Origin: Blautia sp. MSJ-9
Lineage (GTDB): Bacteria; Bacillota; Clostridia; Lachnospirales; Lachnospiraceae
NCBI RefSeq assembly: GCF_018919065.1
Contig: NZ_JAHLQG010000043.1
Location: 62,001 to 126,000 of the forward strand
Direction: 5' to 3'
DNA length: 64,000 nt
Positions within the stretch are counted from its first letter, which is position 1; each line of letters opens with the position of its first letter. Below, in pieces: positions 21,652-59,752 of the stretch. Both the position numbers and the translations under genes were made by a program. The notes below the pieces were generated by a model. The model worked only from the letters and a program-made list of their open reading frames with translations, made no database searches and was not told the origin of the DNA.

Positions 21652-22005
21652 TTGGGAATGCAGATATTGTATAAGAATGAAACTGCAAAGAAACAGTTTT
21701 GTTCGGAGTACAAGAAAAAGTGGCGATATCCTGAGCAAGTAAAAAAGAAACTTGAAGCTGCAGAAAACTTTATAATTAATGCAGGGTCTTTGATGGATAT
21801 TGCTAATTATCCTCCATTTCATTTTGAACATTTAAAAGGTGATAGAAAAGAGGAATGGAGTATACGATTAGGGAATACAGGATATAGAGTTACAATGATT
21901 CCTTGTGACAATGATGGAAATGAAATTACAGAAGGGGACATTTTAGCTCAATGTAGAATGATTAAAATTGTGAAGGTGACGGAGGTGTCGAACCATTATG
22001 AGTAA
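21652..22005 (+). CDS. higB: HigB-type RelE/ParE-superfamily toxin
   Basis: The protein of about 117 residues matches host-inhibition HigB toxins: KLEAAENFIINAGSLMDIANYPPFHFEHLKGDRKEEWSIRLGNTGYR, with the RLGNTGYRV core and C-terminal VTEVSNHYE. Such toxins cleave mRNA on the ribosome. The start is unclear. The ribosome site AAAGGAG (21631-21637) serves ATG 21642, but that frame reads MIKFGNADIV and stops. The toxin frame offers only TTG 21652 or ATG 21658, both poorly placed. A one-base loss may have split the N-terminus. The stop overlaps the antitoxin start by 8 bases. Confidence 0.8.
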   Translation: MGMQILYKNETAKKQFCSEYKKKWRYPEQVKKKLEAAENFIINAGSLMDIANYPPFHFEHLKGDRKEEWSIRLGNTGYRVTMIPCDNDGNEITEGDILAQCRMIKIVKVTEVSNHYE

Positions 22006-23104
22006 TGTAGATGAATACAAGGATATAGTGGCATTTCACCCAGGATATTATATTGCGGATATTATTGCGGATATGGAAATAAGTCAGGCTGAGTTTGCAA
22101 CAAGAATGGGAACAACAGCAAAGACTTTAAGCCAGTTGATTAACGGACAGGCTAATATATCAAATGATTTGGCAAAGAAGCTTTCTGTTATGATGGGAAC
22201 AAGTGCAGAAGTCTGGCTTAATTTGCAGAATACTTATGATCAGAAATTGATTGAAATACAGCAGGCTAAGGATTTTGATGCGCAGGCAGAACTCGCAAGG
22301 GAAATTGATTATAAATATTTTGTAGATGTTATTGGTCTTTCAGTAACAAGAAATATTAATGAAAAAGTGTCTAATTTGTGTAAGTTCTTCAAGGTAGCCG
22401 ATTTGAGAATTATGTTACAGCCAGATTTTTTAGTGAATTTCAGGGCAAGCGGGACATGCGGAAGAGAAAAGAATATTATAAATTCCAGAGCCTGGATTCA
22501 AACAGCTATAAATATTTCAAAAAATGTCGAGACCAAACCTTATGATGCTGAAAAATTAAAAGGATATTTGCCAGAACTTAGAGGGATGACGATTAAGAAA
22601 CCGGAAGAATTTTTGCCAAGAATGCGTGAAATTTTTGCAGAGTGTGGTGTTGCATTTGTCTTATTGCCTCATTTGAAAAATTCAGGAGTGAATGGCGCGG
22701 TTAAATGGGTAAACGAGGATAGAGTAGTGCTTGCTATGAATAATAGAGGATTGGATGCAGATAAATTCTGGTTTTCGCTATTCCATGAAATTAAACATGT
22801 TCTTCAGCAAAAGATTAAAACAGTATTTGTAAGCAGTACAGTTGAAGAAATGATAGACATTAATAATAATCTGGAAAGGGAAGCGGATAAATTTGCAACT
22901 AATTATTTGATTCCTCCTGCAGAATATAAGAAATTAGCACCATCAAAATACACTTCTGATAATGAGATTGTAGAATTTGCGAAATCAATAGGAATTCATC
23001 CAGGAATTGTAGCTGGCAGGATGCAGCATGAAGGGATTATTGCTCAGAATAGATGCTCAAAATTAAAGGAAAAGTATGTAATAGAGATAAAACATACTGC
23101 CTGA
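21998..23104 (+). CDS. higA: HigA-type antitoxin with XRE and ImmA/IrrE metallopeptidase domains
   Basis: The 368-residue protein has an N-terminal HigA/XRE helix-turn-helix (MEISQAEFATRMGTTAKTLSQLINGQANIS, about residues 27-56). Its C-terminal half has an ImmA/IrrE-type zinc peptidase motif, H263-E-I-K-H267, followed by LEREADKFATNYLIP. This is longer than the roughly 100-residue minimal HigA. ATG 21998 overlaps the toxin gene (ATGAGTAA), so synthesis is coupled. It should neutralise HigB and repress at the two operators; the peptidase domain could link relief to a cleavage event (inference). Confidence 0.85.
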   Translation: MSNVDEYKDIVAFHPGYYIADIIADMEISQAEFATRMGTTAKTLSQLINGQANISNDLAKKLSVMMGTSAEVWLNLQNTYDQKLIEIQQAKDFDAQAELAREIDYKYFVDVIGLSVTRNINEKVSNLCKFFKVADLRIMLQPDFLVNFRASGTCGREKNIINSRAWIQTAINISKNVETKPYDAEKLKGYLPELRGMTIKKPEEFLPRMREIFAECGVAFVLLPHLKNSGVNGAVKWVNEDRVVLAMNNRGLDADKFWFSLFHEIKHVLQQKIKTVFVSSTVEEMIDINNNLEREADKFATNYLIPPAEYKKLAPSKYTSDNEIVEFAKSIGIHPGIVAGRMQHEGIIAQNRCSKLKEKYVIEIKHTA

Positions 23105-24814: not shown

Positions 24815-25576
24815 ATGTTAAAGGTAGCAATATACGGAAAGGGCGGTATCGGAAAGTCCACAGTGACTTCCAATCTGGCGGCCGCTTTTGCAAATATGGG
24901 GAAGCGTGTCATTCAGATCGGCTGTGATCCGAAAGCGGATTCCACTATTAATTTATTAGGCGGAGAGCCACTTCGTCCGGTAATGAATTTTATGCGGGAA
25001 GAGGACGAGGAGCCGGATGAACTGGCGCAGATTTCAAAGGAAGGTTACGGAGGAATCCTCTGTATTGAGACTGGCGGTCCTACTCCGGGACTTGGCTGCG
25101 CGGGGCGTGGGATTATTGCAACTTTTCAGCTTCTCGAGGATATGGAGTTATTCGAACATTATAAACCGGATGTGGTTTTGTATGATGTACTGGGTGATGT
25201 TGTATGCGGTGGTTTTGCAGCACCGATCCGTGAGGGATACGCGGATAAAGTTCTGATCGTTACATCCGGGGAGAAAATGGCATTGTATGCTGCAAACAAT
25301 ATTTCCAGCGCTGTCAGAAATTTCGAGGACCGCAGTTATGCCCGTGTATTTGGCATCGTGTTAAATCACAGAAATGTAGAAAATGAGACAAAGAAAGTAC
25401 GGGCATTTTCTGAAAAAATTGGAGTGCCGATTGTGGGAGAAGTACCACGGAGTGATGAAATTATCCACTGGGAAGAACAGGGAAAGACAGTGATCGAAGG
25501 AAATCCAGACTCCGAGATCAGTAAATGTTTCCTTGACCTGGCTGCATTGTTATGGAAAGAAGAGGAAAACGTATGA
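24815..25576 (+). CDS. Nitrogenase iron protein-like (NifH/BchL family) ATPase, cassette 1
   Basis: The 253-residue protein has the P-loop [10 protein letters not shown] near residue 7 and GCDPKADST. It keeps both cysteines that hold the bridging [4Fe-4S] cluster in the dimer: C95 in GLGCAGRG and C131 in DVVCGGF. Family members are ATP-gated electron donors to a D/K-type partner. AGGAGGGG precedes ATG. The stop overlaps the start of the D-like gene (ATGA). It is shorter than classical NifH and more like the uncharacterised nitrogenase-like H proteins. Substrate unknown. Confidence 0.9.
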
Positions 25577-26853
25577 GACAGGAAGCCTATTTTTGTACAG
25601 TAAAAGAGCTGAATGAGCTGGGAAAAGATAAGATTCCGCAGCAGCTTATTTCCCATACACATCTGATCTACAGTTCTCCGGCAACGTTGGCGTTCAACTC
25701 TCCAGGAGCAGAAGGATTTGGCGTTAAGCGAGCAGGTCTGGCAGTTCCGGACTCTATCATGCTGATCGTGTCTCCGGGATGCTGTGGTCGTAATACATCG
25801 GTGCTTAGTTCCATGCGTGCTTACCACGACCGTTTCTATTACCTGCTGATGGATGAGACAGATATTGTAACAGGAAGACATTTGAAAAAAATCCCGAAAG
25901 CAGTGGCGGAAATCTGCGAAGAACTTGAGAAAAAGCCATCCGTTGTGATGATATGTATTACCTGTGTGGATGCCCTGCTTGGCACAGATATGGAGCGTGT
26001 CTGTCATAAGGTAGAGGAATATACAGGTATTCCCGTAAGACCGTGTTATATGTATGCACTGACCAGAGAGGGGAGAAAGCCGCCGATGGTGCATGTGCGA
26101 CAGTCCATTTATTCCCTGTTAGAGCCGAAGAAGAAAAAAGGAAATGTGGTGAATTTACTTGGATATTTTTCGCCGTTGGTGGATGATTGTGAACTGTATG
26201 ATCTGCTTCACGGAGCAGGGATAAAAACAATTCATGAGATTTCCAGATGCAGGGATTATGCAGAATATCAGACCATGTCGGAAGCAAACTTTAATCTGGT
26301 ACTGCACCCGGAAGCACGTTTTGCAGCAGAGGATTTTCATGACCGTCTGAAAATCCCGTATATCGAGCTGCGCAGACTGTATCAGATTGATAAAATTGCC
26401 AGCCAGTATCGTGCATTTGGAGCTGCATTAGGCGTGGAATTTGATGATGAAATGCCGCGGAAAGCAGCAGAGGATGTGGTGGTAAAATTTAAGGAAGTAC
26501 ATCCGGATGCAGCATTTGCAGTTGGAGAATGGATGAATGGAGATCCATTTGAGCTGGCACTTGCACTGGTACGCTACGGATTTCATGTGCCGGAGATTTA
26601 TGGAACTTTATCCGGCGAAAATTTCATCTATGTGAAGCAATTAGCGCAGATCAGTCCGGAAACGAAAGTATTTTCCAATCTGGAACCAACTATGCTGTAT
26701 TATGATGGAAGTCAGTCCGGCGTCAATCTGACTATTGGAAAAGATGCCGGATATTATCATAAAGAATGTCCAAACGTGCGCTGGAATGAAGAACGGCAGC
26801 CATATGGTTATGCCGGCGTACGCAGACTGTTTGAGTCACTGGCGGAGGTATAA
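25573..26853 (+). CDS. Nitrogenase component 1-like protein, D-type, cassette 1
   Basis: The start is ATG 25573, overlapping the H-like stop as ATGA, with AGAAGAGG upstream. The 426-residue protein has the alternating Rossmann-like architecture of component 1 proteins. Cysteines in ligand-like positions are C70-C71 (SPGCCG) and C128/C131 ([11 protein letters not shown], matching the NifD ECPVGLIGDD strand). The first NifD cluster Cys position appears replaced ([10 protein letters not shown]). The His/Cys pair that holds FeMo-co in NifD is not apparent. It should pair with the following K-like protein. Reaction unknown. Confidence 0.8.
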
Positions 26854-26857
26854 CACA

Positions 26858-27970
26858 ATGAGAGGACTGAGAAAATATCTGACACCTTTTGCACCGGATC
26901 AGTCCGGGGCTGTGTCTGTATTATATGAATTTGGAGGCATTATCGTTATTTGTGATGCCGGCGGCTGTACCGGAAATATCTGCGGATTCGATGAACCACG
27001 GTGGTTTGAAAGCAAAAGCGCACTGTTCAGTGCCGGGCTTCGTGACATGGACGCAATTCTTGGCCGCGATGACCGTCTGGTGGCAAAACTGGCAGATGCA
27101 GTGACAAAGCTGGATGCGAAATTTGCGGCAATCATCGGGACACCGGTTCCGGCAGTGATCGGAACGGATTACCATGCACTGAAACGTATGACTGAAAAAA
27201 AAGTGGATCTACCAATCCTGACTGTAGATACAGATGGCATGGAATTATATGACAAGGGCGAAGAAAAAGCATGGATGGAGCTGTTTCGTGTATTTGCGGG
27301 CGAAAAGGAAGAAGTGATTCCAAACAAAATAGGGATTCTCGGCATGACACCGCAGGATATCAGTGATCTGCGTGCAGCAGACCGTATCCGGGAACGTTTT
27401 GCAGCAGAAGGGAAAACGGCGGTCTGTTACGGAATGGGAAACGGACTTGATGATGTGAAAAAGGCTTCCAGTGTGGAGAAAAATATTGTAGCAGCACCGG
27501 CAGCTTTGGAAGCGGCGAAATACTTGGAACAAACCTATGGAACACCTTATGAGATTGGCTATCCGCTAGTGGATGAGCTGCTTTGTGACATGAATTATCA
27601 TGGAAAAAAAGTACTTATTGTACAGCAGCAGGTGACAGGAAATGCTATCCGTGAGGAAATATTAAAGAAAGCGCCGGATGTACAGGTAACAGTGGCAAGC
27701 TGGTTTATGATGAAGCCGGAGATTCGCAGGGACGAAGATCTGCATCTGCGGGATGAGGAAGATTATATTAAGCTGGTGGAAAATGGCGCATATGATGTGA
27801 TTTATGCGGATCCATGTATGGCAAGAATGACACCGAAATTTGAAGGAACATTTGTAGATACTATACATTTTGCAGTGTCAGGGAAACTTGTAACAGTGGA
27901 AGCAGCGAAAGACTCCAAAGAACTGAAAGAACCAGGAAAACTGAAAGAATCAAAAAAACAAGAGAAGTAA
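26858..27970 (+). CDS. Nitrogenase component 1-like protein, K-type, cassette 1
   Basis: ATG 26858 is chosen (GGAGG 10-15 bases upstream, 4 bases after the D-like stop). The 370-residue protein has YEFGGIIVICDAGGCTGNICGF with C32, C37 and C42, and GTPVPAVIGTDY where NifK has a Cys in the TTCMAEVIGDD strand. The likely cluster ligands are thus fewer than in NifK. The C-terminus is an unusual Lys/Glu/Pro repeat tail (two 18-base units, KELKEPGKLKESKKQEK), probably disordered. It is related to the second K-like protein at 35526. Confidence 0.8.
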   Translation: MRGLRKYLTPFAPDQSGAVSVLYEFGGIIVICDAGGCTGNICGFDEPRWFESKSALFSAGLRDMDAILGRDDRLVAKLADAVTKLDAKFAAIIGTPVPAVIGTDYHALKRMTEKKVDLPILTVDTDGMELYDKGEEKAWMELFRVFAGEKEEVIPNKIGILGMTPQDISDLRAADRIRERFAAEGKTAVCYGMGNGLDDVKKASSVEKNIVAAPAALEAAKYLEQTYGTPYEIGYPLVDELLCDMNYHGKKVLIVQQQVTGNAIREEILKKAPDVQVTVASWFMMKPEIRRDEDLHLRDEEDYIKLVENGAYDVIYADPCMARMTPKFEGTFVDTIHFAVSGKLVTVEAAKDSKELKEPGKLKESKKQEK

Positions 27971-28039
27971 AAGAACCGGGAAAACCGGACAGCCACGATC
28001 ATTGTGACTATGATCGTATGAGTTCGGTGGGAGAAGTGT

Positions 28040-30499
28040 ATGAATAAAGAGGAGATGACCTGGCGTATCCGGGTATACGGTATTGTTCAGGGAGTTGGTT
28101 TTCGGCCAACAGTAAGCCGCCATGCGACGACTCATGGGATTTGCGGAACTGTCTGTAATAAAGGACCATATGTGGAAATTTTTGCGCAGGGTACAAAAGA
28201 ACAGATCGATGGATTCCTGAATGAACTGAAAGAACATCCGCCGAAACGTGCGGCTATCTTAAAAATAAATACAAAAGATGTTACAGCAGAGACAGCAGTA
28301 CATTTCGAAATATTCGATATCATCGAAAGTGAGAAAACAAAGGGAGAGATATTCGTTTCCCCGGATATTGCAATCTGTGAAGAATGCAAAGAAGAAATGT
28401 TTGATCCGAAAAACCGGCGCTATCTGCATCCGTTTATCAACTGTACCTGCTGCGGACCGAGACTTACGATTCTGGATTCACTGCCATATGACAGGGAACG
28501 TACAAGTATGAAAGAGTTTCCGATGTGCCCGGACTGTGCGAAAGAATATTTCGATGAGAAAACGAGGCGCTATGATGCGCAGCCGGTGTGCTGCAATGAA
28601 TGCGGACCGGAGGTATATCTGATCGGCAGAACTGAGAGAGGGCGTGATGCAATTACATATACACGCCGGATGATCAGTGAAGGTAAAATTGTAGCGATCA
28701 AAGGAATCGGAGGTTTTCATTTGTGTTGCGATGCGACAAATGAAGAAGCGGTTAAACGTCTGCGTACATTAAAGAAACGTCCTGCCAAGCCTTTTGCGGT
28801 GATGGCAAAGGATGAATCAGTGGTAAAACGGGAATGTGTTGTGACACCGGAACAGGAGGAAATTCTTACCGGACATCAGAAACCAATCCTGCTGCTGGAC
28901 AGAAAAAACAGCGGCAGACTGGCAGCTTCTGTAGCACCGGAAAATCCGAAAGTTGGAGTGATGCTTCCCTATGCACCGGTGCAGTTGCTGATTTTCCAGT
29001 ATGATGATGGAATCGAAATGCCGGATCTTCTGGTGATGACCAGTGGGAACACATCCGGGGCTCCAATCTGCCGGGAAGATGAGGAAGCAGTTGCTGAATT
29101 GTCACATTTGTGTGATGCGATGTTATCGCATGATCGAAAAATCAGGATCCGGGCAGATGATACGGTGATGGATTTTTATAAAAACGAACCATACATGATC
29201 CGGAGGTCCAGAGGCTATGCACCGCTGCCGTTTATGACATCAACAGACTGGAAAGGGCAGGTGCTTGCTGTTGGTGGAGAACTGAAAAATACGTTTTGCA
29301 TTGGTGTGGACAGTCGATTTTATCCGTCTCCATATGTGGGAGATCTGGAAGATCTGAGAACTGTAAAAGCATTGCAGGAAACGATTCACCGGTTTCAGAC
29401 ATTGCTGGAAGTAAAGCCACAGGTGGTGGTCTGTGATATGCATCCGAAGTATAACTCCACGGTTGTAGCGAAGGAACTCGGTTATCCGATGATCCAGGTG
29501 CAGCATCATTATGCGCATATTTTGTCCTGTATGACAGAAAATGACTGCCACGATCCGGTCATTGGAGTTGCTTTTGACGGAACCGGATATGGAACGGACG
29601 GTACGATCTGGGGTGGCGAGGTTCTGCTGGCAGATTATGAGAATTTTACAAGATTTGGAAATATTACCCCGTTTTTGCAGATTGGCGGTGACGCTTCTGC
29701 AAAAGAGGGCTGGCGTATTGCGGTATCTATGATCTATGGATATACAAAAGACCGCGAACAGGCATGGAAGATTATTGAAAAGCTTGGACTTTGCAGCGAA
29801 CAGGAAAGCAAAGTGCAGTTTACCATGGCAGACCGTAAGATCAATGCAGTGATTTCAACCAGTGTGGGAAGGCTTTTTGATGCAGTCAGTGCGATTCTGG
29901 GTATCAGGCGCCAGTCAAGTTTTGAGGGTGAAGCATCGATGGCATTGGAGTTTGCAGCAGAAGCATATGAACAGAAAAAATATGAACAGCAAAAATATAA
30001 ACAGGGAAATTGTGAACAGCGAGAATGCGAACAGCAAAAAAAAGAATATGAACTGCAGGATATTGAAGTAGTTGAAAATCTGAGCGGAAATGAGGAACTG
30101 GACAAGCTGGTGTATAAAAACGAGGAACGTTTCATTTTAAATACCAGAATGTTGATACAACAGATTGTAGAAGAAAAAATGCAAGGTGCAGACAGCGGCA
30201 GGCTGGCATATCTTTTTCATCAGGTACTGGCAGAGCAGATTGTAGCAGTCTGTAGCGAAGCACGTAACAGCAGTGGCAGAAATAAAGTCGCACTGAGCGG
30301 CGGTGTATTTCAGAACCGATTACTGCTGCGCCTGACAGAAGAACGACTTAAACAGGAAGGTTTTGAAGTGTTGCGGCATCACATGATCCCGCCAAATGAT
30401 GGAGGAATCGCGATCGGACAGGCAGCATATGGGATGTATCGATATAATTGTTCACCTTGTTCTGAATCATGCGCTTTTAAAAATAGTAGCGAACAGTAA
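28040..30499 (+). CDS. hypF: Carbamoyltransferase HypF
   Basis: The 819-residue protein has all HypF domains: acylphosphatase (RVYGIVQGVGFRPTVSRH), two zinc fingers (CEECKEEMFD...CTCCGP and CPDCAKEYFD...CCNECGP), a YrdC domain (KGIGGFHLCCDATN) and a Kae1-like domain (QHHYAHILSCM, FDGTGYGTDGTIWGGE). HypF makes S-carbamoyl on the HypE C-terminal Cys from carbamoyl phosphate, the source of CN ligands for Fe. An insert at about residues 643-667 consists of five 15-base units (YEQKK/YEQQK type) not normal for HypF. It lies 69 bases after the K-like gene. Confidence 0.95.
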   Translation: MNKEEMTWRIRVYGIVQGVGFRPTVSRHATTHGICGTVCNKGPYVEIFAQGTKEQIDGFLNELKEHPPKRAAILKINTKDVTAETAVHFEIFDIIESEKTKGEIFVSPDIAICEECKEEMFDPKNRRYLHPFINCTCCGPRLTILDSLPYDRERTSMKEFPMCPDCAKEYFDEKTRRYDAQPVCCNECGPEVYLIGRTERGRDAITYTRRMISEGKIVAIKGIGGFHLCCDATNEEAVKRLRTLKKRPAKPFAVMAKDESVVKRECVVTPEQEEILTGHQKPILLLDRKNSGRLAASVAPENPKVGVMLPYAPVQLLIFQYDDGIEMPDLLVMTSGNTSGAPICREDEEAVAELSHLCDAMLSHDRKIRIRADDTVMDFYKNEPYMIRRSRGYAPLPFMTSTDWKGQVLAVGGELKNTFCIGVDSRFYPSPYVGDLEDLRTVKALQETIHRFQTLLEVKPQVVVCDMHPKYNSTVVAKELGYPMIQVQHHYAHILSCMTENDCHDPVIGVAFDGTGYGTDGTIWGGEVLLADYENFTRFGNITPFLQIGGDASAKEGWRIAVSMIYGYTKDREQAWKIIEKLGLCSEQESKVQFTMADRKINAVISTSVGRLFDAVSAILGIRRQSSFEGEASMALEFAAEAYEQKKYEQQKYKQGNCEQRECEQQKKEYELQDIEVVENLSGNEELDKLVYKNEERFILNTRMLIQQIVEEKMQGADSGRLAYLFHQVLAEQIVAVCSEARNSSGRNKVALSGGVFQNRLLLRLTEERLKQEGFEVLRHHMIPPNDGGIAIGQAAYGMYRYNCSPCSESCAFKNSSEQ
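29966..30040 (+). repeat. Five 15-bp tandem repeats inside hypF
   Basis: Units of the form tatgaacagaaaaaa repeat five times in frame, encoding YEQKK, YEQQK, YKQGN, CEQRE and CEQQK. They sit in the Kae1-like domain region and add a charged, likely disordered loop. Confidence 0.75.
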
Positions 30500-30603
30500 C
30501 ATATTAATTTGACCAGATAAACTGCGAAGCAGTTCTTAGGGTATGAATAAATAACAAAGCGGATGCTTTTATCCGTTTGATCGAACGGTAGGAGGATATA
30601 AAG
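30500..30603. other. hypF-hypC spacer with two small hairpins
   Basis: It contains aactgc-gaa-gcagtt (30520-30534), identical to a hairpin at 59397-59411, and an imperfect aagcggat...atccgttt hairpin (about 30556-30578). A good GTAGGAGG site precedes hypC. No promoter is evident. Confidence 0.4.
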
Positions 30604-30813
30604 ATGTGTGTAGGATTATCAGCAAAAGTAGTAAAAATCAGTAATGGCACAGCGCTCATCGACGCAGGCGGTGCCAAAAGAGAGGTTTCTTCTCAGCTTC
30701 TGGAAGATCTGGAGCCTGGAGATTATGTTATGGTTCACGCAGGTGTGGCAATTGCAAAGATCACCGATGAAGACGACAGTGAAACCGAGCAGCTCATGGA
30801 GGAATTTTTATAA
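30604..30813 (+). CDS. hypC: Hydrogenase assembly chaperone HypC
   Basis: The 69-residue protein starts MCVGLSAKVV with the essential Cys2 that, with HypD, carries the Fe during ligand assembly. It has a conserved GGAKREVSSQLLEDLEPGDYVMVHAGVAIAKI core. GGAGG precedes ATG. The stop overlaps the hypD start by one base (TAATG). Confidence 0.95.
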   Translation: MCVGLSAKVVKISNGTALIDAGGAKREVSSQLLEDLEPGDYVMVHAGVAIAKITDEDDSETEQLMEEFL

Positions 30814-31886
30814 TGGCAGAGGAGAAATGTGAAAAGAAGAGCGAAGAGAAAACCGAAAGGAAAACCGCCAGAGAGATCATTGAAAATTATGATGGCCCAA
30901 AGGTACGGATCATGGAAGTATGCGGTACGCACACTCATGAGATCTTCCGACTGGGAATCCGCAGATTGCTTCCTGAACAGGTGGAACTGATCTCCGGACC
31001 GGGATGTCCGGTATGTGTAACTCCGGTCAGCTTTATTGACGAAGCGATTTATCTGGCACTGGAAAAAGGAGTTACCATCTGTACATTTGGTGACCTGGTA
31101 CGTGTGCCGGGAACAAAGATGAGCCTTGCAGGAGCCCGTGAACAAGGGGCTGACATTCACGTCGTATATTCTCCGGCAGATGCGGAAAAATATGCCAGAG
31201 AACATCCGGACAAACAGGTGACATTTCTTTCAGTCGGATTTGAAACAACGACACCGGCAAGTTGTCTTTCAGTAAAAGCTGCAAAAGAAAACGGGTTGGA
31301 TAATTACTCAATATTAACTGCCAACAAAACCATGCCTCAGGCTTATGAGGTGTTAAAAGGCAGTGCGGATGTATTTTTATATCCGGGACATGTCAACGCC
31401 ATTACAGGAACACGTCTGTGCGAAGCACTGACAGAAGAAGGAGTCAGTGGTGTTGTGGCAGGATTTACTGCAAAAGAGCTGATGACAGCACTGGCAGTTG
31501 CACTGGTAAAATTTCAGGAAGGAAAGCCGTTTTTTGTAAACTGTTATCCGCGTGTGGTGACACAGGATGGAAGCAGGGAAGCACAGGTGCTTGTAGATGA
31601 GATGATGGAAGCATGTGACTGTGAATGGAGAGGTCTGGGTGTGATTCCTGCATCCGGCATGAAATTAAGACAGGAATGGCAGAATTTCGATGCACGTATC
31701 AAATATCAGATGCCGAAGATTGAAGGAAAACCAAACCCGGCCTGTCGCTGCGGGGATGTGTTGCAGGGAAAATGCAAACCATCTGACTGTAAAGTATTTG
31801 GAAAAGGCTGTACACCGCAGCATCCGGTCGGAGCCTGCATGGTATCCGGCGAAGGCGCCTGTTCTGCATACTATCAGTATTCATAA
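30813..31886 (+). CDS. hypD: Fe-CN/CO assembly scaffold HypD
   Basis: The 357-residue protein has the HypD signature MEVCGTHTHEIFRLGIRRLL, GPGCPVCVTP, GFETTTPA and the C-terminal [4Fe-4S] cysteine set (CRCGDVLQGKCKPSDCKVFGKGC). With HypC it holds the iron that receives CO and CN. The N-terminus carries a Lys/Glu-rich extension of about 20 residues. It overlaps hypC by one base, so the pair is coupled. Confidence 0.95.
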   Translation: MAEEKCEKKSEEKTERKTAREIIENYDGPKVRIMEVCGTHTHEIFRLGIRRLLPEQVELISGPGCPVCVTPVSFIDEAIYLALEKGVTICTFGDLVRVPGTKMSLAGAREQGADIHVVYSPADAEKYAREHPDKQVTFLSVGFETTTPASCLSVKAAKENGLDNYSILTANKTMPQAYEVLKGSADVFLYPGHVNAITGTRLCEALTEEGVSGVVAGFTAKELMTALAVALVKFQEGKPFFVNCYPRVVTQDGSREAQVLVDEMMEACDCEWRGLGVIPASGMKLRQEWQNFDARIKYQMPKIEGKPNPACRCGDVLQGKCKPSDCKVFGKGCTPQHPVGACMVSGEGACSAYYQYS

Positions 31887-31977
31887 CTGTTCAGTATATT
31901 CACAGTTATGAGCCAAAATCTATTGAAAATCGCATTTGGCGATGGGAATTATCTTGATAAGAAAGAAGGAAATCATC

Positions 31978-32985
31978 ATGGAAAATAAAACAGTAACAAT
32001 GGCACACGGAGCCGGTGGAAAACAGACCTCTGAACTGATCGACCAGGTGTTTAAAGCACATTTTGCGAACAAGGATCTGACAGCTGATGATGCAGCAGTA
32101 TTAGTTCCTCCTACAGGCAAAATGGCAGTATCTACCGATGGTTTCATCGTATCTCCGGCGTTCTTTCCGGGAGGAAATATCGGAAAATTGTCTATCTGCG
32201 GAACTGTCAATGACCTTGCCTGCATGGGAGCAAAACCATTGTATCTTACCTGCGCATTTGTAATTGAAGAGGGATTTCCGATGGAAAAACTGGAAGAAAT
32301 TGCTGCAGCCATGGAGAAAACGGCAAAAGAAGCAGGAGTACATATCGTATCAGGAGATACAAAGGTTGCAGGAAAAGGCCAGGTGGACGGAGTCTTTATC
32401 ACTACGACCGGAATGGGTGAGATCGAAGAAGGAGTAATCGTTGGCGGAGAACTGGCAAAACCGGGGGATGCGATCATTGTAACCGGTGATATCGGACGCC
32501 ATGGATGCACGATTCTGTTAGAGAGAGAAGATTTTGGAATTGATGCGGACGTGACCAGTGACTGTGCACCTTTATGGAATACGGTAAAAGCAGTCATGGA
32601 TACCACACACAATCTGCACGTGATCCGTGATGCAACCAGAGGCGGTGTCGGAACTGTCCTGTATGAGATTGCAGGACAGAGTAACGTGGGTATTCGCTTA
32701 AATGCAGCAGCAGTTCCGGTACAGCCGGAAGTAAAAGGAGTCTGTGGAATGCTTGGACTGGAACCTTTATACCTGGCATGTGAGGGAAGACTTGTCATTA
32801 TGGCGCCAAAGGAAGAGGCTGAAGGAATTGTAGAAACCTTGCGAAAATGTCCATATTCCGAAAATGCAGCGATCATCGGTGAAGTGATCGCAGAAGAACC
32901 TGGAAGAGTTATCATGGAGACTGAGATCGGCACACAGGCACTGCTTCCACAGCCGGGAGGAGAGCTGTTACCAAGAATCTGTTAA
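31978..32985 (+). CDS. hypE: Carbamoyl dehydratase HypE
   Basis: The start is ATG 31978, behind AGAAGGA and giving the normal MAHGAGGKQTSELI beginning; the frame is open to 31936. The 335-residue protein has the AIRS-type ATP site (DDAAVLVPPTGKMAVSTDGFIVSP) and ends in PRIC, the essential C-terminal Cys that is carbamoylated by HypF and dehydrated to thiocyanate. All functional hallmarks are intact. Confidence 0.95.
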   Translation: MENKTVTMAHGAGGKQTSELIDQVFKAHFANKDLTADDAAVLVPPTGKMAVSTDGFIVSPAFFPGGNIGKLSICGTVNDLACMGAKPLYLTCAFVIEEGFPMEKLEEIAAAMEKTAKEAGVHIVSGDTKVAGKGQVDGVFITTTGMGEIEEGVIVGGELAKPGDAIIVTGDIGRHGCTILLEREDFGIDADVTSDCAPLWNTVKAVMDTTHNLHVIRDATRGGVGTVLYEIAGQSNVGIRLNAAAVPVQPEVKGVCGMLGLEPLYLACEGRLVIMAPKEEAEGIVETLRKCPYSENAAIIGEVIAEEPGRVIMETEIGTQALLPQPGGELLPRIC

Positions 32986-33002
32986 ACAGGAGGAATCAGG
33001 GC

Positions 33003-33278
33003 ATGGACACCAGAGTGGCAGTTATTTCAATTATTGTAGAACAGGAAGATGCGATCGAAGAATTAAATACCCTGCTTCATGAGGCACGTCAGTATATTAT
33101 TGGCAGAATGGGTATCCCATACCGCTCGAAAGGGATTAGTATTATCAGCATTGCAATCGATGCACCGCAGGATAAGATCAGTGCACTTTCCGGAAAAATC
33201 GGACATTTAAAAGGAGTATCTGCAAAAACAGCATATTCAAAGGTCATTACTCCGGCGGAAGGAGGAATAAAGGATTGA
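33003..33278 (+). CDS. TM1266-type putative iron-only hydrogenase system regulator
   Basis: The 91-residue protein matches the TM1266/ACT-like family: [38 protein letters not shown] and [28 protein letters not shown]. Members usually sit next to [FeFe]-hydrogenase maturation genes (hydEFG), resemble the NikR effector domain, and are thought to be regulatory. Here it lies instead between hypE and the second H-like gene. CAGGAGG is upstream of ATG. Its stop overlaps the TTG start of the H-like gene. Confidence 0.85.
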
Positions 33279-34192
33279 TCAGGATCGCAGTATATGGAAA
33301 AGGCGGAATTGGAAAATCTACGACTGTTTCCAATGTAGCGGCAGCATTGGCTGAGATGGGGCTTAGAGTGATGCAGATCGGATGCGATCCGAAAGCGGAT
33401 TCTACCATTTTACTTCGTCACGGAGAAGCAGTTCCGGCAGTGCTCGATTTATATAACAAAAAAAAGCAATCACTGCAGTTAGAAGATATGATACGCATTG
33501 GCTATAATAATGTCATCTGTGTGGAAGCCGGAGGACCGACGCCAGGGCTTGGCTGTGCAGGTCGTGGAATCATCACGGCGCTGGAAAAGCTGAAAGAACT
33601 GGGAGCCTATGAGGTATACAAACCGGATGTGGTTTTATATGATGTACTTGGAGATGTAGTCTGTGGAGGATTTTCCATGCCGATGCGAAATGGTTACGCT
33701 GACAAAGTATTTATTCTTACATCCGGGGAAAATATGGCGATTCATGCGGCGGCAAATATTGCCATGGCAGTGCAGAACTTTAAAAATCGTGGATATGCAG
33801 GGCTTGGCGGACTGATTTTGAACCGCAGGGATGTTCCGAGGGAAGAAAAAAAAGTGGTAGAACTGGCAGATGATTTCCAGACAGCAGTTATTGGTACGTT
33901 ATCACACAGCAGTCAGGTAGCGTTGGCGGAAGAACAGCAGAAAACATTGATGGAGTGCTATCCTGAAAGTGAAATGGCAGAGGAATACCGTGCACTTGCG
34001 GTGCAGATGTACCGGATATGTGGTGGTGTTTTGAAAGATGAAAACGATGTTGTAAGGGATGAATATATGCGTAAATGTATGGATGAGCATATGGATAAAT
34101 ATATAGACGAGCATATGGATAAATATACGGACGAACGTATGAATGAACATATAAATGAATGCATGAATGGACAGACACAGGAGGATGTGTAA
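33275..34192 (+). CDS. Nitrogenase iron protein-like (NifH/BchL family) ATPase, cassette 2
   Basis: It starts at TTG 33275, overlapping the regulator's stop as TTGA, with GGAGG 10 bases upstream. The 305-residue protein keeps the P-loop [10 protein letters not shown] and cluster cysteines C94 (GLGCAGRG) and C130 (DVVCGGF). After about residue 260 there is a tail of five 8-residue repeats (DEHMDKYI type) from 24-base tandem DNA units, not found in NifH. It is closely related to the cassette 1 H protein. It presumably donates electrons to the downstream D/K pair. Confidence 0.9.
34058..34177 (+). repeat. Five 24-bp tandem repeats at the 3' end of the H-like gene
   Basis: Units gatgagcatatggataaatata-like repeat five times exactly in frame, at 34058, 34082, 34106, 34130 and 34154. 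They encode [32 protein letters not shown] and NECMNGQT. Confidence 0.8.
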
Positions 34193-35529
34193 TGTTACGT
34201 CGTATGGGTGAAACGGTTGATCCGAAAGGCGCAGTGGTAAAAATAAAAGATGCTTCCTTCCCGGCGCCATTTGCTTCGGAGCTGGAATATAATTCTCCGG
34301 TGCATGGCAACTGGAATATTGTACATACAGGGATGCAGGTTCCGGAATCCATTCAGATTTATGTCTGTGCAGATAACTGTATGCGGGGCGTTGTGCTGAC
34401 AGCAGCAGAGATGAACGCGGCAGAACGTTTTTCCTTTGTAATCCTGGAAGAACAGGATCTCTTAAACAGCAATCTGGAGGATATTACTATTGAGGGCGTG
34501 ACAGACGTGCTGAACAAACGCGGAGATCACCCAAAGGCTGTTTTACTGTTTACGGTTTGTCTGCATCATTTTGTGGGAAGCAATCTGGACTATATTTACA
34601 GTGAACTGGAGTATCGTTTCCCGGATATCTGTTTTATCCGTTGTTACATGGACCCAATCATGCAGAAGCATGGACTAACTCCGGATCAGAAGCTGCGCAA
34701 AGCAATGTATGATCCGCTTCCGGCCTGCAAACCGAACATGAAAACAGTATCTGTCTTTGGCAGTGATTTTGTGCTGGATGAGAGCAGTGATATCAAGCGT
34801 TTATTAAAACGATATGAGTATACAGTGAGAGAACTGCCAGCCTGTAAAACATGGCAGGATCTGCTGGATATGAGCAAAGGCAGTCTGTTTATCGACTGCT
34901 ATCCGGCAGGAAAATACGGAATGGAAGCACAGGCGGAGCGCTTGGGACGTGAGCATCTGTATCTGCCTGGCAGTTTTGACTATGATGAAATTGAAAAACA
35001 GTTAAAACAGCTGACAGATGCACTTGGACTGCCGGAATTAACAGAAGACGAATTAGCGCATGAACGAGAAAACTGTGAGGAAGTGCTGGCAAGAGCAAAA
35101 GAGCTGATTAAAGATATGCCTGTCACTTTAGACTATCTATATCATCCAAGACCCCTTGGACTGGCAAAGCTACTTCTGACACATGGATTTTGTGTGAAAG
35201 CAGTTTATCTGGATGGAATCAGTCCGGAGGAAAGAGAGGAGTTTCTCTGGCTGCAGAAGCATGCGCCGGAACTTGAACTGATCGCAACCATTCAGGTGAA
35301 GATGCGTGTACTGCCAAGAGGTGGCAGTGAAGAAATGCTTGCCATTGGACAGAAAGCAGCCTATTTCAGCCGAAGCCGCCACTTTGTCAATCTGGTACAG
35401 GGAGAAGGTCTGTATGGATTTGACGGGATCAGAAGAACGGCGGAGCTGATGATGGAGGCGTATCGAGAAGAAAAGGATACAGAGAAACTTGTAGTGCAAA
35501 AAGGATGGGGGTGCGAGTGCTGCCTATGA
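34192..35529 (+). CDS. Nitrogenase component 1-like protein, D-type, cassette 2
   Basis: ATG 34192 overlaps the H-like stop by one base (TAATG) with AGGAGG 10 bases upstream. The 445-residue protein resembles component 1 alpha-type subunits. Cys C59 and C63 (VCADNCMRG) and C123 (LLFTVCLHHFVGSNLDYI) occupy ligand-like positions, with no obvious cofactor His/Cys. It ends in GWGCECCL, a Cys-rich terminus (CxCC) unusual for the family. Similarity to the cassette 1 D protein is low, so the cassettes are not a simple duplication. Confidence 0.75.
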   Translation: MLRRMGETVDPKGAVVKIKDASFPAPFASELEYNSPVHGNWNIVHTGMQVPESIQIYVCADNCMRGVVLTAAEMNAAERFSFVILEEQDLLNSNLEDITIEGVTDVLNKRGDHPKAVLLFTVCLHHFVGSNLDYIYSELEYRFPDICFIRCYMDPIMQKHGLTPDQKLRKAMYDPLPACKPNMKTVSVFGSDFVLDESSDIKRLLKRYEYTVRELPACKTWQDLLDMSKGSLFIDCYPAGKYGMEAQAERLGREHLYLPGSFDYDEIEKQLKQLTDALGLPELTEDELAHERENCEEVLARAKELIKDMPVTLDYLYHPRPLGLAKLLLTHGFCVKAVYLDGISPEEREEFLWLQKHAPELELIATIQVKMRVLPRGGSEEMLAIGQKAAYFSRSRHFVNLVQGEGLYGFDGIRRTAELMMEAYREEKDTEKLVVQKGWGCECCL

Positions 35530-36725
35530 GACAATCTTATCGAATCATACCAATTTATACGGCAGATGTATCTGGTGTCTGTTCCGCACTGTATGAACTT
35601 GGCGGAATGACAGTGATGCATGACCCTTCCGGATGCAATTCTACATACAATACCCATGATGAGATCCGCTGGTATGATCAGGACAGCCTGATCTTTATTT
35701 CAGGACTTACAGAAATCGATGCGATTATGGGAAATGACCGGAAATTTATTGACGATATCGAGCATGCAGCCCGTGAACTGCACCCGAAATTTATCGCACT
35801 GGCAGGCTCACCGATCCCATTTATGAATGGAACGGATTTCCCGGCAATTGCGCGTGTGATCGAGACAGAAACCGGAATTCCGACATTTTCTGTGCCGACA
35901 AATGGCATGAATGATTACATCTATGGAGCAGGAATTGCACTGGAACAAATCGCCCGGCGGTTTGTTAAAGAGCCTGACAGGCAGGAAAAAGACCGATCTT
36001 CTTTAAAAAGTGTAAATCTATTAGGTGTGACACCACTGGATTTTGGACCACAGGAAAACGTAGAAGTATTAAAAGAAAATCTGAAAAAATACGGATGGAA
36101 CGTTTTATCTACATGGGCGATGGGAGATGACCTGGAAACTCTGCAAAAAGCAGGGGAAGCAGCCGTCAATCTGGTGGTGTCTGCAGTGGGACTGCGGGCG
36201 GCAAAGGTCCTCTGGGAAAGATACAAAATACCATATGTGATCGGAACGCCAAACCAGTGGCTGGCAGAAGATATTTCAAATGCATTGGAGACAGCAATCG
36301 CGCGATGCACTGCAGAAACACAGCAGTCTGTAACTACACAGCAGTCTACAATCGAGCAGTACTCTACAGTCACAGACGGGGCTTCAGCTGCACAGCAGGC
36401 AGACCCTGCGGCTATATATCTGCAGAACCGCATGCGGCAGAATGCAGAGATCACTCTGATTGGAGAACCTGTCACGATGGGATCGCTGGCAGCAGGTATC
36501 GAAAAGAAATATGGACATTCGACCCGTGTATTCTGTCCGTTGAAAGGATGCGAAGCTTTACTTGGCAAAAAAGACAAAGTAGTACTGGGAGAAGAAGCAA
36601 TGGAAGAAGCACTGAAAGATTCCAAAATCATCGTAGCAGACCCACTGTACCGACCAATCTGTCCAAAGAGCAGCACCTTTTATGAACTTCCGCATGTAGC
36701 ATTTTCGGGAAGAATATATTTATAG
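35526..36725 (+). CDS. Nitrogenase component 1-like protein, K-type, cassette 2
   Basis: ATG 35526 overlaps the D-like stop as ATGA; an in-frame ATG at 35505 is an alternative. The 399-residue protein has YTADVSGVCSALYELGGMTVMHDPSGCNSTYNTHDEIRWY-type sequence with C19 and C37, and GSPIPFMNGTDFPAI at the strand where NifK has a ligand Cys. An insert at about residues 265-285 derives from three 18-base tandem units (TQQSVT/TQQSTI). It is clearly homologous to the cassette 1 K protein and is last in the operon. Confidence 0.8.
   Translation: MRQSYRIIPIYTADVSGVCSALYELGGMTVMHDPSGCNSTYNTHDEIRWYDQDSLIFISGLTEIDAIMGNDRKFIDDIEHAARELHPKFIALAGSPIPFMNGTDFPAIARVIETETGIPTFSVPTNGMNDYIYGAGIALEQIARRFVKEPDRQEKDRSSLKSVNLLGVTPLDFGPQENVEVLKENLKKYGWNVLSTWAMGDDLETLQKAGEAAVNLVVSAVGLRAAKVLWERYKIPYVIGTPNQWLAEDISNALETAIARCTAETQQSVTTQQSTIEQYSTVTDGASAAQQADPAAIYLQNRMRQNAEITLIGEPVTMGSLAAGIEKKYGHSTRVFCPLKGCEALLGKKDKVVLGEEAMEEALKDSKIIVADPLYRPICPKSSTFYELPHVAFSGRIYL
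36318..36371 (+). repeat. Three 18-bp tandem repeats inside the K-like gene
   Basis: Units acacagcagtctgtaact, acacagcagtctacaatc and a more diverged gagcagtactctacagtc are in frame and encode a Thr/Gln/Ser-rich loop. Confidence 0.65.
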
Positions 36726-44995: not shown

Positions 44996-46786
44996 ATGAA
45001 GATTACAGATACGATCAAATATGTTGGGGTAAACGATCATCAGGTAGACTTATTCGAAGGACAGTACGCAGTTCCAAACGGAATGGCATATAATTCCTAT
45101 GTGATTCTGGATGAGAAAGTAGCAGTTATGGATACTGTAGATGCTAATTTCAAACACGAATGGCTGGATAATCTGGAGCAGGTACTGGACGGACGTAAAC
45201 CAGATTATCTGATCGTGCAGCATATGGAACCGGACCACGCAGCAAACGTAGCTAATTTCCTGGAAGTATATCCGGGTACAACTGTAGTAGCCAATGCGAA
45301 GACATTTGTTATGATCAAGAACTTCTTCGGACTGGATCTGGAAGGACAGAAACTGGAAGTAGAGAGTGGTTCCACATTAAGTCTTGGAAATCATAACCTT
45401 ACTTTCGTATTTGCACCAATGGTACACTGGCCGGAAGTTATGGTCACCTATGACAGCACAGATAAAGTTCTCTTCTCCGCAGACGGATTTGGCAAATTCG
45501 GTGCCCTTGATGTAGAAGAAGACTGGGACGATGAAGCAAGAAGATATTTTATCGGCATTGTAGGCAAATACGGCGCACAGGTACAGAGACTTCTGAAAGC
45601 TGCAGCAACACTGGATATCCAGATCGTCTGTCCATTGCATGGTCCTGTACTCACAGAGAATCTGGGACATTATATCGGACTTTATGATACCTGGTCCTCT
45701 TACACACCTGAAGAAGAGGGAATTGTAGTTGCCTACACTTCTGTATATGGACATACAAAAGCAGCAGTCAATCAGTTTGTTGAGAAATTAAAGAGCAAAG
45801 GATGTCCGAAAGTAGTTGTCTATGACCTGGCAAGAGATGATATGTCTCAGGCGCTCAGCGATGCTTTCCGTTACAGCAAACTGGTGCTTGCAACCACTAC
45901 CTATAATGCAGGAATCTATCCATTTATGAATGACTTTATCACTCGCCTTGTAGAGCATAATTTCCAGAACCGCACAGTAGGTCTGATCGAGAACGGTTCC
46001 TGGGCACCTCTGGCAGCAAAAGTGATGAAAACGATGCTTTCTGAATGCAAGAAGATTGACTGGCTGGATACGACTGTAAAGATCATGTCTGCAGTAAACC
46101 AGGATAACAAAGATCAGATGGAAGCAATGGCTTCTGAACTCTGCCAGGAATACATTGCAAAGAATGATGAGCTGGCAAATAAGAATGATATGACAGCATT
46201 ATTCCGTATCGGATACGGTCTGTATGTAGTAACATCCAATGATGGCAAGAAGGATAACGGACTGATCGTCAATACAGTTACACAGTTGACAGACTCTCCG
46301 TTCCGTGTGGCAGTTAATATCAATAAGACAAACTATTCCCACCATGTTATCAAACAGACTGGTGTGATGAATGTAAACTGTCTCTCTGTAGAAGCACCAT
46401 TCTCTGTATTTGAGCAGTTCGGTTTCCAGAGTGGAAGAAGTGCAGACAAATTTGCAGGGCAGAAAGTGAACCGTTCCGATAACGGTCTGGTATTCCTGGA
46501 TAAATACATCAACGCATTCATGTCCCTGAAAGTAGAGCAGTATGTAGACCTTGGAACTCATGGAATGTTTATCTGCAGCGTGACAGAAGCCCGTGTGGTA
46601 AGCGACCAGGAGACTATGAGCTACACCTACTATCAGAAGAATGTAAAACCAAAACCAGAGACAGAAGGAAAGAAAGGCTTTGTATGTAAAGTCTGCGGAT
46701 ATATTTACGAAGGTGATGAACTTCCGGAAGATTACATCTGCCCGCTTTGCAAACATGGAGCAGTAGATTTTGAGCCGATCGGATAA
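44996..46786 (+). CDS. Flavodiiron protein fused to flavin reductase-like and rubredoxin domains
   Basis: The 596-residue protein has four domains. A metallo-beta-lactamase-like diiron domain (QHMEPDHAANV, HWPEV, SADGFGKFG, PLHGPVL; about 1-245). A flavodoxin (AYTSVYGHTKAAV; about 250-395). A flavin reductase-like FMN domain (about 400-545). A C-terminal rubredoxin (VCKVCGYIYEGDELPEDYICPLC). Flavodiiron proteins reduce O2 to water or NO to N2O, so this is a self-contained oxygen/NO defence enzyme of an anaerobe. Its own promoter is visible upstream. Confidence 0.92.
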   Translation: MKITDTIKYVGVNDHQVDLFEGQYAVPNGMAYNSYVILDEKVAVMDTVDANFKHEWLDNLEQVLDGRKPDYLIVQHMEPDHAANVANFLEVYPGTTVVANAKTFVMIKNFFGLDLEGQKLEVESGSTLSLGNHNLTFVFAPMVHWPEVMVTYDSTDKVLFSADGFGKFGALDVEEDWDDEARRYFIGIVGKYGAQVQRLLKAAATLDIQIVCPLHGPVLTENLGHYIGLYDTWSSYTPEEEGIVVAYTSVYGHTKAAVNQFVEKLKSKGCPKVVVYDLARDDMSQALSDAFRYSKLVLATTTYNAGIYPFMNDFITRLVEHNFQNRTVGLIENGSWAPLAAKVMKTMLSECKKIDWLDTTVKIMSAVNQDNKDQMEAMASELCQEYIAKNDELANKNDMTALFRIGYGLYVVTSNDGKKDNGLIVNTVTQLTDSPFRVAVNINKTNYSHHVIKQTGVMNVNCLSVEAPFSVFEQFGFQSGRSADKFAGQKVNRSDNGLVFLDKYINAFMSLKVEQYVDLGTHGMFICSVTEARVVSDQETMSYTYYQKNVKPKPETEGKKGFVCKVCGYIYEGDELPEDYICPLCKHGAVDFEPIG

Positions 46787-59198: not shown

Positions 59199-59207
59199 GT
59201 TAAGTTG

Positions 59208-59234
59208 GTTATTGTTTGTTCCGTGCACAGTAAC
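59208..59234. repeat. GTTACTG-N13-CAGTAAC dyad, copy 4
   Basis: GTTATTG and CAGTAAC (one G-T pair) are separated by 13 bases, 10 bases after the NRPS stop. Confidence 0.4.
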
Positions 59235-59452
59235 TAAGTAAGTTGAGGACTTTAACCAAATCAAGTGAGTCCCTTGCTTCAATTGTGAATATCCGCTTGA
59301 CTTTCGAAAAGAGAAAAACAATGAGAGAAAAATAATAAGTAATGAGCAACAGGTGAGAACTGGATTATATCAGGAGGGTCTTAAGCTCTCCTGATGAACT
59401 GCGAAGCAGTTATCCAGGTAATCCTGTTCGCCTGAAAGGGAGGAAAAAATTA
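59235..59452. other. NRPS-STAS spacer with hairpins
   Basis: It contains TTTAACCAAATCAAGTGAGTC (59251-59271, similar to 37777 and 62633), a hairpin atcaggag...ctcctgat (59369-59395) and aactgc-gaa-gcagtt (59397-59411, identical to 30520). A GGGAGG site precedes the STAS gene. No T-run follows the hairpins, so readthrough into the STAS gene is plausible. Confidence 0.45.
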
Positions 59453-59752
59453 ATGGAAATTGTAAGCAAAACAGAAGGAAACAAAGTAACCATGGAAATC
59501 ACCGGATGGCTCGACACACAGACATCACCGCAGTTAGGAGAAGAACTCTCAAAACTCGATGACAGCGTAACAAGTCTCGTATTCGACTTCGCAAAACTCG
59601 AATACATCTCATCCGCCGGCTTACGTCAGGTAATCTCTGCATACAAAAAAATGGCAGGCAAAGATGGCTTCAAAATTATAAACGTTTCTGATGAAGTATT
59701 TGATGTATTCAGACTCACTGGGTTTGACCAGAAGATTCAGATTGAAAAATAA
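59453..59752 (+). CDS. STAS-domain anti-sigma factor antagonist-like protein
   Basis: The 99-residue protein is a complete STAS domain of SpoIIAA/RsbV type. It has VTMEITGWLDTQTSPQLGEEL, and LVFDFAKLEYISSAGLRQV with the Ser pair at about residues 56-57 where SpoIIAA is phosphorylated. It ends FRLTGFDQKIQIEK. Such proteins bind RsbW-like kinases and release their target when unphosphorylated. The natural partner here is the HATPase domain fused to the MATE transporter 9 kb upstream. AGGGAGG precedes ATG. Confidence 0.9.
   Translation: MEIVSKTEGNKVTMEITGWLDTQTSPQLGEELSKLDDSVTSLVFDFAKLEYISSAGLRQVISAYKKMAGKDGFKIINVSDEVFDVFRLTGFDQKIQIEK

Follow-up and report, generated by a model that had tools for sequence, protein, structure and literature searches.

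A cassette of hypCDEF and nitrogenase-like genes as a candidate substitute for HydG in the maturation of [FeFe]-hydrogenases

Comparative genomic analysis of a 64,000-nucleotide stretch of the genome of Blautia sp. MSJ-9 (contig NZ_JAHLQG010000043.1, positions 62,001 to 126,000; hereafter, the window) centers on a run of eleven co-directional genes on the + strand, at window positions 24815-36725, in the order H1-D1-K1-hypF-hypC-hypD-hypE-TM1266-H2-D2-K2. The H genes encode NifH-like reductases, and the D and K genes encode relatives of the two subunits of nitrogenase component 1. We propose that HypCDEF, together with two NifEN-like complexes, probably replace HydG and supply the Fe-CN-CO unit of the H-cluster of [FeFe]-hydrogenases. 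Genome comparisons lend good support to the view that this cassette stands in for HydG, a radical S-adenosylmethionine (SAM) tyrosine lyase, in genomes where HydE, HydF and [FeFe]-hydrogenases are kept; the chemistry of the pathway is inferred.

Association of the cassette with the absence of HydG

The CO and CN ligands of [FeFe]-hydrogenase are attributed to HydG. The distribution of the cassette was followed in two samples, the first of which consists of 250 genomes of the same family as the window genome. A D2 query (E<=1e-10) matched 32 of these, and 17 of the 32 carry H1-D1-K1 and the hyp genes, D1 having been reached through the D2 query as a paralogue (e.g., with E 3e-18 in G167); a few of the cassettes are split, with hypD on another contig in G091 and the run spread over two contigs in G136 and G230. 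The second sample comes from a comparison of a D1 profile with 84,980 species genomes, in which 475 relatives were counted and the best 80 were taken as named loci. At least 7 of the 80 (L088, L093, L105, L113, L120, L140 and L162) had already been encountered among the family genomes. In 46 of the 80, D1 has 9 kb of sequence to either side (fully flanked loci). The order H1-D1-K1-hypF-hypC-hypD-hypE is contiguous in all 46, so that the association of H/D/K genes with hypCDEF that had been noticed in a sequence-only reading of the window holds across genomes. D2 is found in 43 of the fully flanked loci, K2 in 40, H2 in 28 and TM1266 in 27; H2 therefore often seems dispensable, and D2K2 rarely. 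The named carriers include Roseburia faecis, Eubacterium ramulus, Coprococcus comes, Blautia, Anaerobutyricum hallii and Anaerostipes, as well as Clostridium ljungdahlii, C. ragsdalei, C. carboxidivorans, C. drakei, and bins of Coriobacteriaceae and Atopobiaceae.

The family sample was searched with profiles for HydG (TIGR03955), HydE (TIGR03956), HydF (TIGR03918), the [FeFe]-hydrogenase catalytic domain (PF02906) and the [NiFe]-hydrogenase large subunit (PF00374), and 50 of the named genomes were searched with those for HydG and HydF. HydG exceeds its cut-off in 111 of the 250 family genomes, as against none of the 17 cassette genomes, of which 16 have HydE over the cut-off, 16 have HydF and all 17 encode the PF02906 domain. 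HydF is matched in 137 family genomes (136 over the cut-off), 29 of them without HydG: 16 of the 29 carry the cassette, five a close H2D2K2 set, one a distant match to D2, and seven have no D2. The corresponding figures for the 108 genomes with both HydF and HydG are zero cassettes, one close H2D2K2 set (G224) and two distant matches to D2 (G072 and G143). Comparison of cassette and HydG among the HydF-positive family genomes by the Fisher test gives p=2.3e-13, a value not corrected for kinship. Among 50 named cassette genomes, none of which belongs to the 17 of the family sample, HydF is over the cut-off in 48 and HydG in two; the two that lack HydF (G261 and G279) are bins, and their cassette contigs contain a partial HydF match (L103) and a HydE match (L134). 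No HydG match at E<=1e-30 was found in C. ljungdahlii or C. ragsdalei, both of which carry the cassette, and none over the cut-off in the carrier C. carboxidivorans.

The explanation that HydG is present in these genomes merely as a divergent protein was considered and rejected. The best score in a family cassette genome, among the matches listed, is 204 bits, compared with approximately 470-960 bits for intact HydG; the best in the 48 named genomes without HydG is 222 bits, and these 204- and 222-bit stretches, among the matches listed, stop at around position 400 or earlier in a profile of 470 positions. We take such low-scoring matches to be ThiH-like proteins.

With respect to the seven HydF-positive genomes that have neither HydG nor D2, one (G047) contains a HydG fragment (262 bits), and in three (G011, G122 and G128) HydF is deeply divergent. 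The HydF-profile proteins of these three genomes, in which no HydG is over the cut-off, form a deep separate clade and are perhaps HydF paralogues with another role. G114, G142 and G181 similarly combine HydF with the absence of D2 and of HydG over the cut-off; other strong nitrogenase-like proteins are encoded in G142, and none over the cut-off in G114 and G181.

Gene neighborhoods provide a second line of evidence. HydE or HydF lies beside the cassette in 15 of the 46 fully flanked named loci, and clustering of the open reading frames (ORFs) of the 80 named loci yields TM1266 (25 loci), HydF (17) and HydE (13) as the commonest non-core neighbors. The other clusters that span at least five loci consist of assorted ABC ATPases (11), a 334-aa protein (5) and frames opposite to the core strand. 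In the family sample, the two maturase genes, placed with TIGR03956 and TIGR03918 (one HydF being confirmed by Pfam), occur within or next to the cassette in several arrangements: H1-D1-hydE-hydF-K1-hypF in G230 (L062), hypE-(TM1266)-D2-K2-hydF-hydE in G069 and G083, K2-hydF-hydE in L044 and L051, hypE-hydE in G071 and K2-hydF in G025. The remark in the sequence-only reading that radical SAM assembly genes are missing thus applies to the window locus but not to some of its relatives, in which hydE, itself a radical SAM gene, is beside or inside the cassette. Moreover, in a HydF tree of 60 genomes, those with the cassette and those with HydG interleave, with 10 changes of cassette state on the best tree, at least four of which are forced by well-supported branches.

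A dedicated set of Hyp proteins

HypD is over the cut-off in 46 of the 250 family genomes and PF00374 is matched in 32, mostly over only the first ~70 profile positions. Sixteen family genomes have HypD without a [NiFe] large subunit, and 15 of these carry the cassette; the sixteenth, G051, has HydG, and its HypD is broken into two where a contig starts. This survey is an independent check on the D2-based sampling, since it added a single genome with HypD and no [NiFe]-hydrogenase. The [NiFe] large subunit was not found in 15 of the 17 family cassette genomes, nor in the assembly of the window genome (G000), and each of the two cassette genomes that have it (G069 and G230) encodes a second HypD near the hydrogenase, the other HypD being in the cassette. 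In a tree of 42 HypD proteins, 22 from cassettes split cleanly from 20 linked to [NiFe]-hydrogenases with support of 100/100, in a bootstrap analysis that had not fully settled (L109, a chosen cassette locus, gave no HypD and was dropped). The C-terminal Cys of HypE is retained in 62/62 and 15/15 cases, with three loci cut by contig ends set aside, the HypD motifs of the cassettes in 65/65 and the HypC motif in 64/65. The conclusion that the Hyp set of the cassette is dedicated, with its CN chemistry intact, and would not serve a [NiFe]-hydrogenase stands up as far as sequence comparison goes.

Relationships of the nitrogenase-like proteins

The best solved sequence relative of D1, K1, D2 and K2 alike is NifE, clearly so for K1 and D2 and narrowly for D1 and K2. 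D1 has the full nitrogenase component-1 fold, with DPOR at the top of its fold list within a tie; its Cys 70, 71, 128, 131 and 158 are invariant in all 52 alignment rows, and Cys226 falls a few residues off the NifE Cys in the HMMER alignment. H1 contains a P-loop, with Cys 95 and Cys 131 within NifH-type cluster motifs, and H2 likewise has a P-loop and two Cys in such motifs. H2 also bears a repetitive tail of ~50 residues rich in Met, Asp, Glu and His, and there is no such tail on H1.

Membership in the NifHDK, NifEN, CfbCD and Bch families was examined and rejected by curated cut-off. For NifHDK, H1 and H2 score 312 and 315 bits compared with 394 for NifH, and D1 and K2 score 34.5 and 33 compared with 654 for NifD; for NifEN, among the matches listed, D1, K1 and K2 score 68, 43 and 62 bits against a nifE cut-off of 505; for CfbCD, H1 and H2 score 308 and 307 bits against 402 for CfbC, and K1 and K2 both 26 against 268 for CfbD; and all Bch scores, among the matches listed, are under the cut-offs. 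A placement of the D/K proteins inside a characterized clade, which the sequence-only reading had named among the findings that would tell against its inference, was accordingly not observed as far as tested, their scores being far under the curated cut-offs for nitrogenase, NifEN, F430 and bacteriochlorophyll proteins. Weak profile matches to the Mar entry 9fmg were obtained for K2 (7e-11), K1 (5e-4) and D2 (4e-4), and none for D1 at 1e-3; the curated scan yielded no Mar model that has a cut-off.

A proposed route to the H-cluster and its alternatives

We propose a pathway in which HypF and HypE would convert carbamoyl phosphate to enzyme-bound thiocyanate, and HypC-HypD, through a dedicated HypD lineage, would load CN (and CO) on iron as in [NiFe]-hydrogenase maturation. 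The NifEN-like D1K1 complex, driven by ATP-dependent electron transfer from H1, could then take over the iron unit and reduce or re-ligate it, for instance through the provision of CO or a lowering of the oxidation state of the iron. In combination with H2 or H1, D2K2 might complete the unit or pass it to HydE/HydF, which would build the azadithiolate-bridged cluster and insert it into the hydrogenase; TM1266 could be a sensor or regulator of the pathway. The cassette would thus specify another way to the H-cluster, one that dispenses with HydG and combines three metallocofactor systems: HypCDEF would make the CN-bearing iron, two HDK sets would reduce and re-ligate it and HydE/HydF would finish the cluster. 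We lean toward this interpretation with some reserve. The sequence-only reading had envisaged a nitrogenase-superfamily system tied to an Fe-CN/CO cofactor or, alternatively, Hyp proteins recruited for a new metallocofactor. The former idea holds up, given the missing [NiFe] enzyme and the scores of the D/K proteins under the cut-offs; the likely client, [FeFe]-hydrogenase, lay outside the view of that reading. The latter is not required because the cassette co-occurs and co-locates with HydE/HydF and rarely with HydG, a pattern better matched by a different way of making the known H-cluster.

Several observations weigh against the replacement of HydG by the cassette. HypCDEF yield Fe(CN)2CO and the H-cluster route involves Fe(CO)2CN units, so that the ligand stoichiometry calls for an unproven step. 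The seven HydF-positive, HydG-negative family genomes without any D2 match imply that other solutions exist, and four genomes with HydF, HydE and H2D2K2 (G117, G134, G226 and G227) have neither HydG nor HypD over the cut-off. HydG and the cassette occur together in C. drakei and C. thailandense, and neither HydE nor HydF is in view in 31 of the 46 fully flanked loci. A kinship-aware sign test on the HydF tree, by a quick method, gave four independent pairs on well-supported branches and was not significant. In the window genome itself, HydE and HydF were not found in an assembly that is 84% complete, and the only H-domain protein (L245:5038-6762) has an unusual layout. Finally, PMC9431212 has its own candidates for HydG, namely radical SAM proteins of an atypical kind, in every acetogen that it treats apart from C. 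autoethanogenum.

Among the competing explanations, the one in which the hyp genes serve an ordinary [NiFe]-hydrogenase, with the nitrogenase-like genes as chance neighbors, is highly improbable. It draws on the bona fide family scores of HypD, HypE and HypF and on C. ljungdahlii, for which the tables of PMC9431212 give one hypCDEF set and a [NiFe]-hydrogenase of group 1a, and it is largely refuted by the missing large subunit, in the window genome as in 15 of the 17 cassette genomes, by the gene order fixed in 46/46 loci and by the cassette HypD clade apart from the 20 [NiFe]-linked HypDs. The sequence-only reading had itself named an ordinary [NiFe]-hydrogenase elsewhere in the genome among the findings that could together dispose of its case, and none was encountered as far as tested. 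A modified H-cluster, with another CN/CO ratio or bridge, produced by the cassette for particular [FeFe]-hydrogenases appears improbable as well. HypCDEF are known for Fe(CN)2CO, with a ligand ratio unlike that of the HydG synthon, and the coexistence of HydG and the cassette in the two Clostridium species looks as if two products were made; against this, HydE and HydF of the cassette genomes score as standard members, and, with HydG missing from 17/17 and 48/50 cassette genomes, a modified cluster would have to serve the whole [FeFe]-hydrogenase set.

Slightly less remote, albeit still unlikely, is the possibility that the two HDK sets are metabolic reductases acting on sulfur, nitrile or one-carbon compounds and endowed by HypCDEF with an Fe(CN)2CO center of their own, in which case the correlation with HydG would be a by-product of lifestyle or ancestry. 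The full component-1 fold of D1, the existence in the family of other HDK sets with ABC transporters and the outcome of the kinship-aware test are all compatible with this view. Conversely, the near-absence of HydG from cassette genomes extends over Lachnospiraceae, Clostridium and Coriobacteria, the commonest neighbors are hydE, hydF and TM1266, and cassette and HydG genomes interleave on the HydF tree, all of which points to hydrogenase.

A transporter-linked side branch

Six family genomes (G117, G134, G175, G224, G226 and G227) have a close H2D2K2 set without D1 or the cassette hyp genes. A FecB-type binding protein adjoins H2D2K2 in all six, a FecCD permease is visible in five (in the sixth, the contig ends), and HydF is in the same contig stretch in five. 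Neither a FecB-type protein nor a FecCD permease was found in the fetched loci of the 17 cassette genomes or in the 46 named loci that are fully flanked. The separation has an exception in L115, which is not fully flanked: upstream of its H1 lie an ABC ATPase and a FecCD-like permease. The four genomes of this group with neither HydG nor HypD over the cut-off (G117, G134, G226 and G227) represent a sister branch in which H2D2K2 is combined with a FecBCD-type importer, HydE, HydF and TM1266-like domains. Conceivably, this branch obtains the iron unit, or a precursor of it, by uptake and not by synthesis, a weak suggestion of a choice between making and importing one intermediate.

Similarity to TM1266 is also detectable inside proteins of the size of ABC-transporter ATPases (366 aa in L036, 469 in L037, 379 in L039 and 356 in L040); in L036, an ABC ATPase with a C-terminal TM1266 domain was confirmed by Pfam. 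We suggest that TM1266 could be a ligand-sensing module. L052-L054 and L057-L061 contain HDK clusters of more distant kinship, which are accompanied by FecBCD-like transporters and show no hyp genes nearby, and no HydF match at E<=1e-40 was found in five of these eight genomes (G228, G152, G059, G244 and G004).

Layout of the run and the rest of the window

The ORFs, translations and family scans agree with the sequence-only reading on the eleven genes, their strand, their order and the outer coordinates of the run (Table 1); the starts of K1, hypC, hypE, D2 and K2 were refined from reading frames and relatives. The cut-offs exceeded by HypF, HypD, HypE and TM1266 are the curated ones of NCBIfam. 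The overlapping or near-overlapping starts that it described are found at seven of the ten junctions (five overlaps of 1-4 bp and short gaps of 4 and 17 bp) but not at the other three, with gaps of 69, 104 and 91 bp. Promoter-like sites are no more frequent than chance (17 found, 23.1 expected in shuffled sequence), and a single transcript is a candidate only. D1 and K1 form a single open frame in L046 and L066 (genomes G203 and G071). Neither hypA nor hypB is among the eleven genes, a statement on the run, the remainder of the genome not having been searched.

Table 1. Genes of the run, in window coordinates
Gene	Position	Strand	Assignment	Basis
H1	24815..25576	+	NifH-like ATP-dependent reductase (Fe protein)	Fer4_NifH E 9e-89
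D1	25573..26853	+	nitrogenase component-1-like subunit	Oxidored_nitro PF00148 8e-30
K1	26858..27970	+	nitrogenase component-1-like partner subunit, motif DAGGCTGNICGFDEPRWF	PF00148 8e-19
hypF	28040..30499	+	carbamoyltransferase, first step of CN ligand synthesis	TIGR00143 768 bits, cut-off 466
hypC	30604..30813	+	scaffold/chaperone	N-terminal MC[VLI]G motif and position
hypD	30813..31886	+	Fe-(CN)2CO assembly scaffold	TIGR00075 386 bits, cut-off 193
hypE	31978..32985	+	thiocyanate-forming dehydratase, catalytic C-terminal Cys	TIGR02124 426 bits, cut-off 252
TM1266	33003..33278	+	TM1266-family protein, putative [FeFe]-hydrogenase-system regulator	TIGR03959 114 bits, cut-off 60.8
H2	33275..34192	+	second NifH-like reductase, repetitive C-terminal tail	Fer4_NifH E 7e-88
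D2	34192..35529	+	second nitrogenase component-1-like subunit, C-terminal KGWGCxxC	PF00148 5e-10
K2	35526..36725	+	second partner subunit, motif SGCNSTYNTHDEIRWY	PF00148 3e-30

The assembly of the window genome comprises 3.67 Mb in 57 contigs and encodes a D1 that shares 92% identity with its counterpart in Roseburia faecis M72 and 91% with the one in Eubacterium ramulus. Among its near relatives, R. faecis (G250) has HydF and E. ramulus (G159) has HydE and HydF; the lack of both in the window genome could reflect either an assembly gap or the loss of catalytic hydrogenases in this strain. Its single H-domain protein is encoded between NuoF/formate-dehydrogenase-like genes and a SpoIIE-type phosphatase.

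Outside the run, no obvious partner was found among the window genes scanned, and, of the clustered window ORFs, only MATE transporters recur in relatives (a cluster of seven loci), at varying places. The window also encodes a 2994-aa non-ribosomal peptide synthetase (50214-60402). This protein contains three stretches of the AMP-binding type, two of the condensation type and three of the carrier type, ends in an NAD-binding reductase and is followed by a phosphopantetheinyl transferase; we presume that it might belong to a peptide-aldehyde pathway of the type known from gut bacteria. A flavodiiron-type protein with a flavin-reductase-like stretch is encoded at 44996-46786, every score being under the curated cut-offs, and at 21652-23104 a HigA-type antitoxin domain is carried by a protein of greater length, whose neighbor, a 117-aa ORF, gave no Pfam match at 1e-5.

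Implications

If the proposal is correct, Roseburia faecis, Blautia, Coprococcus comes and Anaerobutyricum hallii build the H-cluster by a HydG-free route, as do the gas fermenters C. ljungdahlii and C. ragsdalei. No such route was found in the open-licence literature searched. These gut bacteria and gas fermenters have roles in H2 metabolism. The nitrogenase superfamily would then contribute to a further organometallic cofactor, the CO bound to Fe might be of anaerobic origin, and new genes for making active hydrogenases would become available.

The proposal would also answer a puzzle of the acetogens. According to the consulted portions of PMC9431212, HydE and HydF are present in eight Clostridium acetogens and HydG, by motif, in only three; hypCDEF occur without hypAB in five acetogens, the set of C. 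autoethanogenum being CLAU_RS01730-01745; and the missing hydG, stated as unexplained for C. ljungdahlii and C. ragsdalei, has no straightforward explanation, the possibilities offered being either radical SAM proteins of an atypical kind or CO and CN in free form. Of the laboratory acetogens C. ljungdahlii and C. autoethanogenum, only the former was seen here to carry the cassette. In these same portions, no connection is drawn between the missing hydG and the missing hypAB, both of which the cassette would account for. Titles and the beginnings of abstracts in open-licence PubMed Central, a body of text mostly outside of which lie subscription papers and preprints, do not link HydG loss to nitrogenase-like or Hyp genes.

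Comparison with known systems

The cassette can be set beside five characterized systems. With MarHDK, the methylthio-alkane reductase, the sequence match is weaker than with NifE for all four D/K profiles, and MarHDK is not known to be linked to Hyp or Hyd proteins. In CfbCD, of F430 synthesis, and BchLNB (DPOR), a NifH-like reductase and a DK-like acceptor reduce or assemble a target other than N2, and the same architecture is seen in the cassette, whose proteins nevertheless score under the CfbC and CfbD cut-offs and, among the matches listed, the Bch cut-offs. NifEN, the scaffold for FeMo-cofactor, is the nearest solved relative of the D/K proteins and works with a NifH-like protein; in contrast, the cassette proteins score 43-68 bits against the 505 required (among the matches listed), and their partners are hydrogenase-maturation genes. 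From the HypABCDEF system of [NiFe] maturation, the cassette shares HypC, HypD, HypE and HypF with catalytic Cys and motifs intact but differs in a run without hypA and hypB, in the absence of a [NiFe] enzyme from 15 of 17 cassette genomes and in a separate HypD clade. With HydEFG, the cassette shares the proposed client, the partners HydE and HydF, and a TM1266 family member alongside; the difference is that HydG, over the cut-off in 0/17 family and 2/50 named cassette genomes, has HypCDEF and nitrogenase-like proteins in its place.

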